Shown here: piece after piece, positions 33,630 through 43,413 of the stretch
How the letters are laid out: each line of letters opens with the position of its first letter
Numbering within the stretch: the first letter of the stretch is position 1
NCBI GenBank assembly: GCA_014860745.1
Contig: JACZJC010000059.1
Location: 1 to 64,000 of the forward strand
Reading direction: 5' to 3'
Length of the DNA stretch: 64,000 nucleotides
DNA from: Anaerolineales bacterium
GTDB taxonomy: Bacteria > Chloroflexota > Anaerolineae > Anaerolineales > Villigracilaceae
Program-made: the position numbers and the translations under genes
The notes under the pieces: generated by a model
Database searches by the model: none
The model's input: only the letters and a program-made list of their open reading frames with translations
Told to the model about the DNA's origin: nothing

Positions 33630-33661
33630 AAAAGAGGATGGCTGTTCAGCCATCCTCTTTT
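33630..33661. terminator. bidirectional terminator
   Basis: AAAAGAGGATGGCTGTTCAGCCATCCTCTTTT. Confidence 0.85.
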
Positions 33662-35670
33662 ATGTTTAAACCATCAGTGTGGACCGTCACACAATTTTTT
33701 CCCCGGGCCTTCGATGCGTATAAAGCCCCGTCCGCCGCTTCCAATATGTCCTGTCCGCTCAGCCCATGGGAGGGATAGGATGCGATCCCGATTGAAAGGG
33801 TGACTTGCAATTCCTGCCCATTGAAATTTTTCTGAAGCATTTGAAACGCCCGCCGCCATTGATTGGCGCGCTTTAAGGCGCCTTCCACTGCCGCGTTGGG
33901 CATTAAAACGACAAACTCATCGCCGCCATACCGGCAGCTTATATCTCCCTGGCGAACATTATGGGTAAGGATCCCGGCAAGTGATTTCAGGATCATGTCC
34001 CCGGCCGAATGGCTGTGACGGTCGTTAAGAGTCTTGAAATTGTCGATATCGATCATGGCAATGCAAAAACCGCTTTCGTTCCGTTTGGCCTGCGCCGACT
34101 CCCGCTCCAACGCTTCTTCGAGGATGCGGCGGTTGTACAGCCCCGTCAGCGGGTCGCGGATGGCCTGTTCGCGCAATTGATCCTGCAGGGAAATAATCTC
34201 TTGCATTTGGTTTTGCAGGCGGTGATTTGCTTCCTGCAATTCCCGTTCCATCAGCTTCCGTTTTGTAATTTCCTGTTTAATGGCAACGTAATTCGTGATT
34301 TCCCTTTTTTCATTGTAAACAGGGGCGATGGTCATTTCCTCCACATACAGATGCCCATTCTTATGGCGGTTGATGATCTCTCCCTGCCAGATTTGGCCGG
34401 AAAGTATGGTATTCCACAGTTTTTCATAAAAGGGCTGATCCTGCTCGCCCGATTTCAAAAAAGATAAATTTTTGCCGAGCGCCTCTCCCGATGAATAGCC
34501 TGTAATGTCAGTAAAGGCGCGGTTGACCCAGATACATTCCCCGTTTAAGTCTGTGATCACCACGGCATTCACGGCGGCGTTCAAGGCCGCGCTCTGCAGG
34601 TTGATCATTTCATTACGCTGTTCGATCAGACGGGCGGTCTGGTTTCGGCTGGTGACATCGCGCGCCAAAATAACCTGTCCGGCAACCTGTCCCTGAGAAT
34701 CTGCCAGGGGTGTAATGACCAGTTCCAGGTCGCGGGGCGAGGCGGTGTTTATGGTGACAGACTCATGGATGCTCCCAACATGGTCGTATTTGCCGAGCAG
34801 GTCGGGCAATTCCTTCAATAATTCGGAAACCGGCCGGCCGGTCACCTGGTCATGGGTTCTATCGAACCATTCCAGCCCGACGTGGTTGATATCCACTACA
34901 CGGTTTTCGGCGTCCAGCACCAAGACCATTTCGGGAATCTCCTCAAAAACAACCTCTCTGGCAATAGGCGCGAGTTCCAAAAATCCAAATCGTAAAACGC
35001 CGAAGCTGAAAAGCAATCCGCCAAAGATAAAAGCAACCGGGGTGAAATCCACCTGGGCGGGGGACTGCGGGGACAGAACTTTCTCGAAGAGATAATATAA
35101 ATTTGCAAGGATGGGAATGAGCACTCCGATCAGCAGCATAGTGCTCTGGCCGCGGTATATGCCGGGGTAGCGCACAACCGCCCGCAAAATTACGAAAAAC
35201 CCAAGCAGTAATAAAAAGTAATTTTGCGCCATCTGCACCCAAAACCATACGCCGCCTTCGATGGTGACGGGTCCCATGCCGGTTTCATATTTCAGGGACG
35301 CATGATAAAAATGACTTAGCGGTGAAAACACAAGGATCAGCGTCAAAACCGGGATGACGAATAAAAACAAAATCCCTTTTCGTGAAAACCAGCGCGCCTG
35401 CTGAGTATAAACGAACGAGAACATGAACCACAGCGGGGGGATGGCAACGATGCTCAAGACTTCAAGCTTCAACCAGAATATCTTTAATGCAACGGAAGTA
35501 GAGATGATCTCCAACCCATATGTCAGCGAGAATAAACCGGCCATAAGCATAAGCAGGGCAAAATATCCCTGCCCACCCTGGGTGCGTTTTTTCGCGCTGC
35601 GCAAGGCAAGCCATATGCCAATAAAAAAATTCACGAACAAAACCCCTGAAATCGCCCAATAGGTGTTCAC
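33646..35670 (-). CDS. N-terminal 7TM (histidine-kinase type) + PAS + PAS + GGDEF diguanylate cyclase; probable GTG start
   Basis: 7TM segment VNTYWAISGVLFVNFFIGIWLALRSAKK; two PAS; DPLTGLYNRRIL; CRYGGDEFVVLMP. Confidence 0.92.
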   Translation of the reverse strand: MNTYWAISGVLFVNFFIGIWLALRSAKKRTQGGQGYFALLMLMAGLFSLTYGLEIISTSVALKIFWLKLEVLSIVAIPPLWFMFSFVYTQQARWFSRKGILFLFVIPVLTLILVFSPLSHFYHASLKYETGMGPVTIEGGVWFWVQMAQNYFLLLLGFFVILRAVVRYPGIYRGQSTMLLIGVLIPILANLYYLFEKVLSPQSPAQVDFTPVAFIFGGLLFSFGVLRFGFLELAPIAREVVFEEIPEMVLVLDAENRVVDINHVGLEWFDRTHDQVTGRPVSELLKELPDLLGKYDHVGSIHESVTINTASPRDLELVITPLADSQGQVAGQVILARDVTSRNQTARLIEQRNEMINLQSAALNAAVNAVVITDLNGECIWVNRAFTDITGYSSGEALGKNLSFLKSGEQDQPFYEKLWNTILSGQIWQGEIINRHKNGHLYVEEMTIAPVYNEKREITNYVAIKQEITKRKLMERELQEANHRLQNQMQEIISLQDQLREQAIRDPLTGLYNRRILEEALERESAQAKRNESGFCIAMIDIDNFKTLNDRHSHSAGDMILKSLAGILTHNVRQGDISCRYGGDEFVVLMPNAAVEGALKRANQWRRAFQMLQKNFNGQELQVTLSIGIASYPSHGLSGQDILEAADGALYASKARGKNCVTVHTDGLNIKEDG

Positions 35671-35746
35671 CCTCTCATTATAAAGAAAAAACCGGGATTG
35701 TGCGCTATAATCAAGTTGTCTGACAACTATTCTCAGGAGAAACCCC

Positions 35747-37213
35747 ATGACTACGATTGACCTGACCATTCACAAAGACCGCCGCGCCCGCGCCATTCAA
35801 CGCGCAAAAGAGCGCAACATCATCATTCCCACCTACGCCCAGATGAAAGACCCCTCGAAAATTCCGGCAAAAGTAAAAGAGGAATTGAAGAGCATCGGAC
35901 TCTGGGATATTCACCCGCGAAATTTGTTCCGCATCAACTGGCACAATCAACCCACCGCATCTGGCGGGACTTTTGGCGGAGTCAACTTCGTCGAGTTTCC
36001 CTCTTCGCTGACGGGAGTCAAGGCGCGCATCATTGCAATCGTTGGCAAGTGGTTCCCCACCGGCGCACACAAAGTCGGCGCGGCGTTCTCTTGTCTCGTG
36101 CCGCGACTGGTCACAGGTCAGTTCGACCCGACAACACAAAAAGCAGTCTGGCCCTCCACAGGCAATTACTGCCGCGGCGGGGCATACGACTCCGCATTGC
36201 TGGCCTGCGAATCCATTGCCATTTTGCCCGAAGGCATGTCAAAGGAACGCTTCGAATGGCTGGAAAAAGTTGCAGGCGAAACCATCAAGACCCCTGGCTC
36301 CGAATCCAACGTAAAAGAAATTTTTGACAAGTGCTGGGAATTAAGAAATTCGGGTCAAGACCTGATGATCTTCAATCAGTTCGACGAGTTTGGCAATTAC
36401 CTCTGGCACTACGAAGTGACAGGTCACGCCATGGAAGAAGTGCTCAAGAAAGTAATGGGCAAGGACGACCGCTTCCGCGGCATGGCGTCCGCAACAGGTT
36501 CAGGCGGCACAATTGCCAGCGGCGACTATCTCAAGCAGATCTTCCCTGAAAGCAAGATCGTGGCAAGCGAAGCTTTGCAATGCCCAACACTTTTGGAAAA
36601 TGGATTTGGCTCGCATCGCATCGAAGGCATCGGCGACAAGCACGTGCCGTGGGTGCACAACACCAAGAACACGGATGTAGTCACCGCCATTGACGACAAT
36701 GCCGTGGTAAACATCTCCCGCCTCTTTAACGAAGAAAACGGACGCGCCTATCTCGCAGAAAAAGGCGTACCTGAATCCATCATTTCCAATCTCGACCTGC
36801 TTGGCTTCTCTGGCATCTCGAATGTACTTACCTGCATCAAGACCGCCAAATACTATGAGATGGACGAAAACGATGTGATGATCACCATGCTGACCGACTC
36901 GATGGAACTCTATCGCTCGCGCTTGCATGAAATGCACCAGGAGTTCGGCGAATACAGCGAGAAGGACGCCGCCGCAGATTTCGCCCGCTACCTGCACGGC
37001 CAGTCCACAGATAACATGCTCGAACTCACTTACCCTGAACGACGACGAGTCCACAACTTGAAATACTACACCTGGGTCGAGCAACAGGGTAAAACATATG
37101 AGGAAATTCAACAGCAATGGTACCAGCCCGATTATTGGACGCAGGTTCAAAAGCAGGCCGATGAAATTGATGAATTAATAGTTGACTTCAATAAAGAAGT
37201 AGGAATAGCCTAA
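35747..37213 (+). CDS. PLP-dependent cysteine synthase-like enzyme
   Basis: KWFPTGAHKVGAAFS; ASATGSGGTIASGDYLKQIFPESKIVASE. Confidence 0.85.
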   Translation: MTTIDLTIHKDRRARAIQRAKERNIIIPTYAQMKDPSKIPAKVKEELKSIGLWDIHPRNLFRINWHNQPTASGGTFGGVNFVEFPSSLTGVKARIIAIVGKWFPTGAHKVGAAFSCLVPRLVTGQFDPTTQKAVWPSTGNYCRGGAYDSALLACESIAILPEGMSKERFEWLEKVAGETIKTPGSESNVKEIFDKCWELRNSGQDLMIFNQFDEFGNYLWHYEVTGHAMEEVLKKVMGKDDRFRGMASATGSGGTIASGDYLKQIFPESKIVASEALQCPTLLENGFGSHRIEGIGDKHVPWVHNTKNTDVVTAIDDNAVVNISRLFNEENGRAYLAEKGVPESIISNLDLLGFSGISNVLTCIKTAKYYEMDENDVMITMLTDSMELYRSRLHEMHQEFGEYSEKDAAADFARYLHGQSTDNMLELTYPERRRVHNLKYYTWVEQQGKTYEEIQQQWYQPDYWTQVQKQADEIDELIVDFNKEVGIA

Positions 37214-38286: not shown

Positions 38287-38850
38287 ATGTTGAAATCCAC
38301 CGACCTGATTTTGGTCTGCCTGCTCCCCACCCCGAGAGATTTGGAAATTGCGCGGCTGCTGGGATGGTACCGTATTCCGCTTCGCACCGCGCCGAAGATT
38401 GTTGCTGTGGACTACCTGGCTTTTTACCAGCCCTCGGCATTCGGCGATCGCGGCGGACTAATCGAATTCATTGCCCCGATCCGCGGACATGAATTGACAA
38501 CGCGCGGCGAACTGCTTAAAGACGAATCGGACCACCCGCGTGCCCGGGAGGAATATTACAAGATTCAGCTTGGCGGATTGGAGAAATTAAAAGAGCCCAT
38601 CAAGGCGGAAAAATGGAAGCGGCTCACCTTTCTATACTCTACGGGCGAATATTTGCTGAACGCCAGGTTATTAAACGACCTGGTCGTGCAAAACCAGGAA
38701 CGCGAGATTCTGTGGAAAAACCTGCGCGAGCGCGCCGAAAACGGACAGCTGTACAAAACTGACCTGCCCGAAGCGGACATCCCTCCCGAGGTTTTAATGG
38801 CTCTTTTGGGCATAAAAGACTTACAAGCAGATTACGAAGCCCCCCAATAG
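38287..38850 (+). CDS. conserved hypothetical protein
   Basis: 187-aa ORF in a compatible + strand order. Confidence 0.7.
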   Translation: MLKSTDLILVCLLPTPRDLEIARLLGWYRIPLRTAPKIVAVDYLAFYQPSAFGDRGGLIEFIAPIRGHELTTRGELLKDESDHPRAREEYYKIQLGGLEKLKEPIKAEKWKRLTFLYSTGEYLLNARLLNDLVVQNQEREILWKNLRERAENGQLYKTDLPEADIPPEVLMALLGIKDLQADYEAPQ

Positions 38851-38899
38851 TCCTCGGTTTCCTTGATTCCGCCTGTACTAAGTGATAAACTTTAGACAA

Positions 38900-40540
38900 A
38901 TGCCAGCCGATATTCTTATAGTTACCCCTTCCGCCAGCCTCGGAGAAAATATCCGCCGTACGCTGGATGAAACCAGGCTCTACCGAAGCCATATTGTCAA
39001 CAATAAGGCTTCTGCTGTTGTACGAGCAGATGAAATTGGCGTACCCATTGCTCTGCTGGACCACGCCCTCGGTGAAGATTGGGTGCTCGAAATCGGAATT
39101 GCCTTGCGCACAGTCCGCCCGGGTCTTAACCTGGTCATCCTTTGCGATGAAAATACCTCTCCACCTGAGTTTGATAGCCTGCGCCCATGGATCCTTGTCC
39201 ACAAGCCTTTCAAGATGTCCGAATTTATGAACGCGATCAGCCAACCCCGACCCATTATGCCTGCCCCTCAACCGAGCGTCACCGCTCCGCTGCCCTGGCT
39301 TAGCGACCAAAACAAAGCCGCGCAGCATCTCACCCGCCTCACTTTGGAATCCTCCGCACAAGCCGCATTGATCACTCTCCAGAATGACCTGTGGGCATAC
39401 GCGGGCGGGCTCTCCCAAAACGCAGCCCGGGAAGTGGCACAAACGGTCACCCGCAATTGGGACGGACAAAAAGGCTCGGACCTGCTGCGGTTCATCCGCC
39501 TTGAAAGCACCAAGGCTGAGCACATGCTCTACGCCACACGTCTCACTGTCGATACTGTGCTCGCATTTGTCTTCGACGCGGAGACTCCCTTCAGCACCAT
39601 CCGCGCCCAGGCAAGCAAGCTCGTCAATGATTTCGAAAGCGACAGGCCTGAATCGCAAAAACCTGCAAAGCCCGCACCGAAAGAAATCAATGATTTTCCA
39701 GAGGACCTGGAAGAAAACGATGCGCTGGATATAGCCCCGATTTCAAACATCCTTTCGGATATCCCCGCGCCAAACCCCGACCCCGCCTCCGCCCGAAACC
39801 CTGGCCTGCCTCGCCAAAAAGAAAAATTCGACCCCAACCAGACTCGCGTCTCGGAACCGCTTTCGAATGCCTCTGTTTTCAACCGTGAGGCATCCCCCTC
39901 CGTCCAGTTGAACCATCTGATCATGACAGACCAGGCTCAAACCCAAAAAATGAGCGCCGAACCACAAACCGCATTCAACGAGGTGGAAGTCACAGCGCCG
40001 TCCCGTCTGCGCAGGCCTGAAACTCCCGTTGCCAAGCCTGCCCCCGGCGAGACGGAAGTGACCCGCGAAAGCACATCCACCGAGGCGGCTCGAAAACTGG
40101 TGGTGGAACCCACCACAGCAGGGTTGTATCATCTCACTTATGCCTGCCTGCTCGTTCCGCGGTTTTCATCGCATTACCTCACTGGCGATCTTGCCGACCA
40201 TCTCGGTGACTGGCTGCCAAATATATGCATCGCATTTGGCTGGCGGTTGGAATACCTGGCTGTGCGCCCGGAGTATTTGCAATGGGTTGTGAATGTTCAA
40301 CCGAATACCTCGCCCGGATATCTCATGCGCATCATGCGCCAGCAGACTTCAGAAAAGATTTTTAGCGATTTCAACCGCTTCAAGAAGGAAAACCCATCCG
40401 GTGATTTTTGGGCCCCCGGGTATCTCATCATGGGCGGAACGCAGCCCCACCCGCCGCAATTGGTTAGGGATTACATTCGCCAGACCCGTCAGCGCCAGGG
40501 GCAGGAAGCGGCGCCGAATCCGCCTCGCAGTCGTCAATAA
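38900..40540 (+). CDS. REC-like + Roadblock/LC7-like + disordered linker + degenerate IS200/TnpA-type (Y1) transposase domain
   Basis: N-terminus ADILIVTPSASLGENIRRTL...ALLDH...VHKPF; middle AALITLQNDLWAYAGG...LVND; C-terminus YHLTYACLLVPRFSSHYLTGDLADHLGDWLP...LEYLAVRPEYLQWVVNVQPNTSPGYLMRIMRQQTSEKIFSDF...FWAPGYLIMGG...VRDYIRQ aligns along the TnpA fold by eye. Confidence 0.8.
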   Translation: MPADILIVTPSASLGENIRRTLDETRLYRSHIVNNKASAVVRADEIGVPIALLDHALGEDWVLEIGIALRTVRPGLNLVILCDENTSPPEFDSLRPWILVHKPFKMSEFMNAISQPRPIMPAPQPSVTAPLPWLSDQNKAAQHLTRLTLESSAQAALITLQNDLWAYAGGLSQNAAREVAQTVTRNWDGQKGSDLLRFIRLESTKAEHMLYATRLTVDTVLAFVFDAETPFSTIRAQASKLVNDFESDRPESQKPAKPAPKEINDFPEDLEENDALDIAPISNILSDIPAPNPDPASARNPGLPRQKEKFDPNQTRVSEPLSNASVFNREASPSVQLNHLIMTDQAQTQKMSAEPQTAFNEVEVTAPSRLRRPETPVAKPAPGETEVTRESTSTEAARKLVVEPTTAGLYHLTYACLLVPRFSSHYLTGDLADHLGDWLPNICIAFGWRLEYLAVRPEYLQWVVNVQPNTSPGYLMRIMRQQTSEKIFSDFNRFKKENPSGDFWAPGYLIMGGTQPHPPQLVRDYIRQTRQRQGQEAAPNPPRSRQ

Positions 40541-40544
40541 AATC

Positions 40545-40575
40545 AAGCGCAGAGTATAATCACTCTGCGCTTTTT
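40545..40575 (+). terminator. rho-independent terminator
   Basis: AAGCGCAGAGT-ATAATC-ACTCTGCGCTTTTTG. Confidence 0.85.
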
Positions 40576-40611: not shown

Positions 40612-43413
40612 ATGCCGCCTACCTTTTATCTTATTGATGGCCACGCCCTTGCCTACCGCATGTATTTCGCATTGACCGCAGGCGGGGGCGGGAGTGCACG
40701 CTGGCAAACCTCCAAAGGGGAACCCACAGCCGGGATATACGGCTTCGCGCGTGAACTCGTCCGCGTGCTGGAACAGGAAAAGCCGGAATATCTCGCTGTC
40801 GCATTCGACGTGGGCAAGACCTTTCGCGATGACATCTTCCCCGATTACAAAGGCACGCGTGAAAAAATGCCCGACGACCTGCGTCCGCAGATCGAACGAA
40901 TCCGCGAGATGGTGGATGCCTTCAACATTCCGCGCCTTGAAATGGAAGGCTACGAAGCGGACGATGTTCTGGGCAGCATCGCCAAAATAGCGGCGGAACA
41001 AGGCCTGGGCGTAAAAATCATAACCGGTGACAGAGACCTGCTTCAGTTAGTCAATGAGCGCACGGCAGTCTATCTCGCAGGCGACGACCAGACGTACCTC
41101 TCCGATGCGGATGTTATAAAAAAACTGGGTGTGCGTGCGAATCAAGTTGTGGATTACAAAGCCATCGTCGGCGATACCTCCGACAACATTCCGGGGATAA
41201 AGGGTGTGGGCGAAAAGACCGCGATTTCCCTTCTGGAAAAATTCGGCACCCTCGATGCCATTTACGCCAATCTCGATCAAGTAGAGAATCGCTGGAAGGG
41301 AAAATTCGAGGCAGGCAGGGATGCGGCCTACATGAGCCGCGACCTCGCGCGGATTGAAATCAATCTCAAAATTAATCTTGACCTTGAACACGCCGCTGTC
41401 AGACCTTTTGACCCAGCCAAACTCGAAACCTTTTTTAAAGAAATGGAATTTAAAACCCTCCTGACGAAGATTCCCGCCATCAGCGGAAATGCGCCTGCCA
41501 CTGAAATCCCCGCCAGAGCGAAGAAGGGCAAGGCGGGCGAACAGATTTCCATGTTCCAGAATCAACCGCAGGTTGTTACTTTTTCCAAACCGTCGAACAT
41601 CGAAGTTGTCATCGTTGATTCTGACGATAAACTCGATGTGCTGAAAAAGGAACTAGCAAAGGCAAAGGTCATTTCTTTCGACACAGAAACCACCTCCACC
41701 GAAGAAATGAGGGCGGAGATCGTCGGTATCTCGCTGGCAGTCGAAGAAGGTCAGGGCTATTACATCCCCGTCGGCCATGTTGCCGGTAACAACCTGCCCA
41801 TCGAAAAAGTGATCCATGCGCTGACCCCCTCCATGACGGATGCGAAGATCGGCAAGGTGGCGCACAACGCCAAATACGATTACATCGTTCTCGCGCGGAA
41901 TGGATTGGTCGTTGCGCCATTGACCTTCGACACGATGCTGGCCGAATTCATCGTTGACCCGTCTTCACGAAACTTCGGGTTGAAGAATCTCGCATCCGCC
42001 CGCCTCGGTGAAGAGATGACCCACATCGAAGAACTCATTGGCAAAGGCAAGAAACAGATCAGCATGGCGGATGTTGCAATTGAGTCCGTGGCCGCCTATG
42101 CCGCCGCCGATGCCGAAAATACGTTGCGCCTTATGCCCATCATGCAAACCGAATTGAAGCGGGTGAACGGCGAGAAACTGCTCGATGAGATTGACATGCC
42201 GCTCACCGCCGTGCTGGCGGATATGGAAATGACCGGCGCGCTGATCGATATAAAATTTTTTGCGGAAATGTCGAAAGAACTGGAAAAACGTCTGGCCGAA
42301 ATCGAAAAGGAAATTTACGGCCATGCAGGCAAGACCTTCAATATCAACTCACCACAACAGCTCTCGGATGTGCTTTTCAATCATTTGCGCCTCGAACCAC
42401 CCGACAAAGGCCGCAAAACAGCGACGGGCTTTTATTCCACCTCGGCAGATGTGCTCGAAGCCCTACGCGATAAACACCCGATCCTAGTATGGATCCTCGA
42501 ACAGCGTGAATTATCCAAACTCAAATCCACGTATGTGGATGCACTTCCAGCCCAGGTGGACGAGAACACAGGCCGCGTGCATACCTCCTACAGCCAGATC
42601 GGCGCAGTGACGGGACGACTCTCCTCCAATAACCCGAACTTGCAGAACATTCCTATCCGCACGGATACGGGGCGCCGCGTCCGAAACGGCTTCATCGCCG
42701 ATAAAGGTAACGTTTTACTTTCTGTGGATTATTCACAGATCGAATTACGCATTGTCGCTCACATGGCGCAGGATGAAGCCATGATCCAGGCCTTCCGCGC
42801 GGGTGAGGATATCCACGCCACCACGGCCGCCGCCATCTACGATATTGAGTTGGATAAGGTCACAAAAGATATGCGCCGCCATGCCAAGGCCATCAACTTT
42901 GGTTTGATCTACGGCATGTCGGCATTCGGCCTCACCCGCTCCACCGAGTTGACCCTGGCCGAAGCGGAGGATTTCGTAAAAGCCTATTTCAGAAAATTCC
43001 CCGGCGTGAAAAAATATCTCGATGGAATGCGAAGGCAAGCCGCTGAGATCGGTTATGTGGAAACTCTGCTTGGGCGCAAACGCTATTTTCCAGCTTTGCA
43101 GGGCAAGGTCAACGTGCAGATGAAGAACCGCGAAGAACGCGAAGCCATCAATGCGCCAATTCAAGGCACGGCTGCCGATATCATGAAGATCGCCATGCTG
43201 AAGATTCCGTCCACGTTAAAGCAGGCAGCCTTGCAAGGCAAAATGCTTTTGCAGGTGCACGATGAACTTGTGATCGAATGCCCGAAGAGCGAAATGCATA
43301 AGACGGCTCAGGTCGTTCAGGAAACGATGGCAAATGCCTACCCGATGAGCATTCCCCTCGAAACAGAAGCAAGAGCGGGCGCGAATTGGGGCGAGATGTC
43401 TGTTATCAAATAA
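40612..43413 (+). CDS. polA: DNA polymerase I (5' exo, 3' exo, polymerase)
   Basis: FYLIDGHALAYRMYFAL; SFDTETTSTEEM; LLSVDYSQIELRIVAHMAQD; INAPIQGTAADIMKIAM; LLQVHDELVIE. Confidence 0.98.
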   Translation: MPPTFYLIDGHALAYRMYFALTAGGGGSARWQTSKGEPTAGIYGFARELVRVLEQEKPEYLAVAFDVGKTFRDDIFPDYKGTREKMPDDLRPQIERIREMVDAFNIPRLEMEGYEADDVLGSIAKIAAEQGLGVKIITGDRDLLQLVNERTAVYLAGDDQTYLSDADVIKKLGVRANQVVDYKAIVGDTSDNIPGIKGVGEKTAISLLEKFGTLDAIYANLDQVENRWKGKFEAGRDAAYMSRDLARIEINLKINLDLEHAAVRPFDPAKLETFFKEMEFKTLLTKIPAISGNAPATEIPARAKKGKAGEQISMFQNQPQVVTFSKPSNIEVVIVDSDDKLDVLKKELAKAKVISFDTETTSTEEMRAEIVGISLAVEEGQGYYIPVGHVAGNNLPIEKVIHALTPSMTDAKIGKVAHNAKYDYIVLARNGLVVAPLTFDTMLAEFIVDPSSRNFGLKNLASARLGEEMTHIEELIGKGKKQISMADVAIESVAAYAAADAENTLRLMPIMQTELKRVNGEKLLDEIDMPLTAVLADMEMTGALIDIKFFAEMSKELEKRLAEIEKEIYGHAGKTFNINSPQQLSDVLFNHLRLEPPDKGRKTATGFYSTSADVLEALRDKHPILVWILEQRELSKLKSTYVDALPAQVDENTGRVHTSYSQIGAVTGRLSSNNPNLQNIPIRTDTGRRVRNGFIADKGNVLLSVDYSQIELRIVAHMAQDEAMIQAFRAGEDIHATTAAAIYDIELDKVTKDMRRHAKAINFGLIYGMSAFGLTRSTELTLAEAEDFVKAYFRKFPGVKKYLDGMRRQAAEIGYVETLLGRKRYFPALQGKVNVQMKNREEREAINAPIQGTAADIMKIAMLKIPSTLKQAALQGKMLLQVHDELVIECPKSEMHKTAQVVQETMANAYPMSIPLETEARAGANWGEMSVIK

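Follow-up and report, generated by a model that had tools for sequence, protein, structure and literature searches.

The TldR proteins, transcription factors that arose from TnpB (PMC13418256), illustrate how an IS605-type component can turn into a regulator after catalytic loss. To our knowledge, the domesticated prokaryotic relatives of IS200/IS605 described so far have either kept their chemistry, as in the RAYTs, or are derived from TnpB. RAYTs retain both the HUH motif and the catalytic tyrosine, and they accompany many dispersed REPs (PMC8266576; PMC6006769). A survey of Y1 proteins retained only those with HUH and Tyr and deemed the rest probably non-functional (PMC6006769), so a family with a dead active site would have been hidden from it. 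The gene presented here belongs to such a family—in it, part of a former jumping gene has lost its cutting residues and now probably has a new cellular job in Anaerolineae.

The gene lies on the forward strand at 38882–40540 of the window (i.e., the whole analyzed stretch of DNA, 64,000 nucleotides), where an open frame of 552 aa from a GTG, supported by 45 full-length homologues, encodes a receiver (REC) domain, a Roadblock domain, a linker and a Y1 domain, in that order. The homologues point to the ATG at 38900 as the probable true start, which would give a protein of 546 aa. The degenerate receiver spans residues 7–124 (38900–39253), the Roadblock/LC7 (MglB-like) domain residues 138–252 (39293–39637), the linker, a low-confidence region (pLDDT about 30–40) and the fastest-evolving part of the protein, residues 253–403 (39638–40090), and the catalytically dead TnpA (Y1) domain residues 410–540 (40109–40501). 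The constant downstream neighbor is polA (DNA polymerase I; 40612–43413, same strand). Upstream lies a 187-aa gene (38287–38850) that is conserved at about 80% identity among relatives and found no match in Pfam, PADLOC or PDB; farther upstream, the window holds a diguanylate cyclase with 7TM-PAS-GGDEF architecture (33646–35769).

An initial annotation, read from the letters alone, had assigned the C-terminal region to the IS200/TnpA fold, and profile and structure searches bear this assignment out. Pfam Y1_Tnp matches residues 416–534 (40127–40483) with E = 2.5e-11 and 44.2 bits (cut-off 23), the NCBIfam IS200 transposase model scores just below threshold (51.1 vs. a cut-off of 55), and a 22-homologue profile searched against PDB retrieved TnpA chains from Sulfolobus and Deinococcus with E-values down to 4.8e-11. 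The Y1 part of the first full-length AlphaFold model was poor because the alignment was of low diversity. With canonical TnpA added to the alignment, the domain was modeled at pLDDT 86.9 and pTM 0.79; this addition may bias the model toward the TnpA fold, a bias from which the sequence searches are free. Foldseek against PDB placed 29 matches at the top for this model, all of them TnpA (e.g., 2ec2 at E = 5e-11, and 2fyx at TM 0.82 and 2.4 Å), followed by a RAYT (4er8, E = 1.2e-3). The predicted structure is thus that of TnpA and not of some unrelated fold.

Within this fold, the motif EYLQWV (residues 464–469; 40271–40288) falls in the same alignment columns as the DHVHLL of canonical TnpA and carries Y465 and Q467 at the two histidine positions; both HUH histidines are gone, as had been read by eye. 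Tyr is likewise present at the former nucleophile position (Y531, codon 40472–40474) and does not vary in the principal alignment of the window's family. This part of the initial reading stood, but the residue is probably not a meaningful nucleophile remnant, because elsewhere in the order most families have Phe there, and here it is probably structural. A census of the two His columns and the Tyr column, taken from a profile-guided alignment of 94 fused proteins of at least 370 residues, found none with H-x-H plus Tyr, while the same alignment recovered 13 canonical proteins with the full set as a control; columns of the most divergent members are possibly one residue off. The Tyr position is mostly Tyr in the window's family and Phe in most others, isolated fused members retain a single His, and one (L264) has H-L-H but Phe at the Tyr position. 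Eleven class outgroup proteins, read by eye, lack the HUH as well. We therefore reject an active transposase, as the full catalytic set is missing from every fused member of the census. Intact homologues within insertion sequences were an alternative that the initial annotation had raised, and none of the 94 combines an intact HUH with the Tyr. Nor was any IS context seen around the gene itself, which is present as one copy in the window's genome at a fixed position before polA. Judged by sequence only, DNA cleavage appears to have been lost in the C-terminal domain.

The two N-terminal domains were also recovered as first proposed, a REC-like domain that keeps ALLD and VHKPF without its acidic pair, followed by a Roadblock/LC7-like segment. 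For REC, sequence profiles matched PDB response regulators (E = 4.5e-5), and Foldseek on the full-length AlphaFold model, from which the structural matches of both domains were taken, found CheY and Spo0F (TM 0.77–0.80). The domain retains the phospho-acceptor Asp (D60) and the Lys (K108), while the acidic pair reads T-P in the window, so that the set of phosphotransfer residues is incomplete; some deeper lineages retain one acidic residue. The Roadblock assignment comes from the predicted model, which has the topology H-E-E-H-E-E-E-H and matches MglB and MP1-p14 (TM 0.6–0.71), and Pfam profiles give no match in this region.

The architecture recurs in other Chloroflexota, with a full-length homologue on 45 other contigs in the first search (records from Anaerolineales, Anaerolineaceae and Chloroflexi, one of them labeled Herpetosiphon). 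Y1_Tnp matches turned up in 60 of the 61 genomes of the window's family, in most of them with a long fused frame among the hits, and across the order 106 of 201 genomes hold the dead domain or something closely related to it (a minority of the matches being canonical TnpA). Beyond the order, the REC–Roadblock–Y1 arrangement is seen in 11 long proteins from other families of the class. Several of these exceed the Pfam cut-offs for both Response_reg and Y1_Tnp, which makes the architecture independent of custom profiles. In three outgroups (L349, L350 and L346), the REC–Roadblock stretch extends over several hundred residues without a convincing Pfam match. Searches of the phylum beyond class Anaerolineae returned only canonical TnpA and plain receivers, and the viral contigs searched gave canonical TnpA and weak fragments only. 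Our literature search, which missed most subscription journals, found no paper describing a REC–Roadblock–Y1 protein. Given its recurrence in 45 contigs and class-wide, this protein is no chance occurrence.

Conservation is uneven along the protein. For 39 loci at which PolA was also available, identity to the window averaged 89.5% in Y1, 87.2% in Roadblock, 81.6% in PolA, 67.6% in REC and 55.5% in the linker, and pairwise dN/dS of the Y1 domain in comparisons with the window was about 0.02 (e.g., 0.023/0.974 vs. L001). Purifying selection on the dead Y1 domain is extreme and maintains its fold; the domain is more strictly conserved than DNA polymerase I itself.

Conservation beside polA, a point raised at the outset, was found as well, with a same-strand polA that starts no more than 900 bases downstream at 84 loci, and one that adjoins, again on the same strand, at six loci of the class outgroups. 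The gap between the two genes is 3–60 bases in many other families and longer in the window's family, where it contains a conserved hairpin, AAGCGCAGAG-TATAATCA-CTCTGCGCTT (40545–40572, no strand assigned), with a central TATAAT. Its general form, GCGCAGAG-TATAAT(N)-CTCTGCGC, stands 3′ of the stop codon at 41 of the 50 loci in the window's family that bear Tyr, and at none of the 48 remaining loci; hairpin and Tyr coincide, yet both mark one branch, and the coincidence is therefore no evidence for a link. The stem and the TATAAT are conserved between divergent intergenic flanks, and one pair of the stem has switched from G-C to A-T. Exact matches to the hairpin core occur once per genome in the window's genome and ten relatives (11 in all), always at the REC–Roadblock–Y1 gene, and on this single-copy pattern we reject a dispersal of this motif in the manner of REP/REPtron hairpins. 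The element is terminator-like on both strands and carries a sigma-70-like −10, and its plainest reading would be a terminator plus a putative polA promoter, though the conservation of its sequence leaves room for a specific binder. Rfam gave no match, and a guide RNA is not indicated. In the pre-polA gap of four loci (L011, L020, L021 and L023), AAAC-N4-GTTC-like sequences 5′ of the hairpin resemble, by eye, Gram-positive LexA boxes. At one locus (L118:5952–6914; G232), a REC–Roadblock protein without Y1 adjoins polA, representing either a loss or the ancestral form.

In the tree, which has few columns and weak inner forks, 77 dead domains are split from canonical TnpA by a branch with 100/100 support; a short protein labeled solo that has lost one His (L311) groups with the canonical proteins. 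The clade of fused proteins from the window's family encloses 14 stand-alone dead domains (96/96 support, in a group that also holds two fused rows), and these therefore derive from the fused gene; an IS origin for them is rejected on this nesting. Copies exist in three forms, i.e., full-length paralogue, Roadblock plus Y1, and Y1 alone, and occur mainly in two types of neighborhood. One is operon-like, with genes for an Mrr-like nuclease (PF04471), a TPR protein, a 7TM/PAS histidine kinase and a LuxR-type regulator, and includes full-length copies (L329 and L330, with the nuclease gene only), a Roadblock plus Y1 copy (L320) and Y1 alone at eight loci (L108, L109, L110, L114, L317–L319 and L321), of which L317 lacks the nuclease gene. 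The Mrr-like neighbor matches the PADLOC candidate PDC-S02, and its cluster with the histidine kinase and dead Y1 is a possible stress or defense system; PADLOC found no known defense system for the polA-linked gene. Mrr-like genes of the same type also occur without a Y1 neighbor (L331–L333). The other neighborhood consists of chemoreceptor, CheW, MotA/B, FliL and FliM genes (L112, L315 and L316). Another dead-Y1 gene sits with a chemoreceptor gene on a short contig (L111), and a further copy lies near response regulators (L113). At L315:5420–7699, a NACHT plus FGE-sulfatase-like protein is encoded immediately beside the stand-alone dead-Y1 gene.

These data support well the conclusion that an IS200/IS605 TnpA domain was domesticated into signaling. 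As to what it does there, our favored reading, to which we would give an even chance, is that the captured domain is a dimeric docking module, with a protein marginally favored over DNA as its partner. An IS200/IS605 TnpA was captured by a REC–Roadblock protein beside polA, most simply once and before the Anaerolineae families diverged. REC and Roadblock would determine where the protein sits or how it oligomerizes, with the long linker as a tether and the TnpA-fold dimer docking the partner. The module was also copied from the polA-linked gene to other signaling loci, in an order of steps that the tree suggests. Dead domains have a lower median K+R fraction than canonical TnpA (0.098 vs. 0.146) and a lower median net charge (+1 vs. 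+7), both comparisons being confounded by shared ancestry and their P values taking no account of relatedness, and in the window's family the Y1 domain still carries a slightly positive net charge (+2). A protein-binding module fits the chemoreceptor, flagellar and two-component neighbors of the stand-alone copies equally well, but the polA neighborhood, the Mrr-like nuclease context and the hairpin could instead favor nucleic-acid binding.

The latter alternative, in which dead TnpA has kept an affinity for nucleic acid in hairpin or single-stranded form and serves as the DNA- or RNA-reading output of a signaling protein, is a serious possibility that falls somewhat short of probable. It might act on its own gene/polA hairpin and hence on polA expression, or report single-stranded DNA near Pol I. 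The same fold binds hairpins in IS608 and ISDra2 (PDB complexes among the Foldseek matches), the gene adjoins polA throughout the class, its hairpin is both frequent at Tyr-bearing loci (41/50) and single-copy beside the gene in 11 genomes, and an Mrr-like nuclease gene accompanies some copies. However, basic residues are depleted relative to canonical TnpA, other families have the protein without the hairpin, a terminator that overlaps a polA promoter would also explain the hairpin, and the chemoreceptor and flagellar copies have no obvious nucleic-acid context. A more far-reaching version, which we regard as rather unlikely, makes the protein a class-wide regulator in which dead TnpA, as a new kind of signaling output, recognizes hairpin or single-stranded DNA and couples the REC–Roadblock switch to DNA polymerase I, the reader later being copied to nuclease/two-component and chemotaxis loci; in the window's family, this coupling may run via the conserved hairpin overlapping the probable polA promoter. 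Cleavage persisting through a rewired active site is very improbable: the principal alignment of the window's family shows no variation at Tyr531, and a single His (or, in L264, HLH alongside Phe) survives in isolated members, but both His and Tyr are found together in 0 of 94 fused proteins, and the domain stays conserved where Tyr has become Phe in most other families. The loss of the active-site motifs would also accord with a transposase pseudogene in decay, or with one inserted by chance in a regulator gene, which we consider scarcely credible; decay is refuted by the selection data (dN/dS about 0.02), and conservation above that of PolA, class-wide polA linkage and intact genes in single-contig genomes argue further against this explanation.

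Whatever partner the domain may bind, a dead domain that occurs class-wide, in fixed linkage to polA, and that is re-used in other signaling operons offers a large natural data set on the role of a transposase fold after catalytic loss. Its closest relatives are the IS200/IS605 TnpA proteins (IS608, ISDra2 and Sulfolobus tokodaii 2ec2), with which it shares the fold, the domain length and the former HUH and Tyr positions, and from which it differs in having no HUH and usually no Tyr, in standing behind REC and Roadblock, in its linkage to polA and in having fewer basic residues. TldR derives from the nuclease TnpB and is RNA-guided, whereas the domain here comes from the transposase TnpA, with no guide RNA indicated. 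We know of no TnpA domain in MglB or RomR. These polarity proteins, regulators of MglA in Myxococcus, combine Roadblock and REC folds too, in two proteins of one pathway (PMC6785124). Aspartate-less or pseudo-receivers have, as here, a REC fold with acidic residues lost (PMC4395418); the window's family, in contrast, keeps the phospho-acceptor Asp and the Lys and loses the metal-binding acidic pair. The RAYT/TnpA-REP proteins are likewise host-domesticated Y1 proteins, and the window's family shares with them a hairpin beside the gene (PMC8266576; PMC6006769), but it differs from RAYTs in the loss of the catalytic set, in a hairpin motif that is single-copy and in a much weaker structural match (4er8, E = 1.2e-3) than to TnpA itself.
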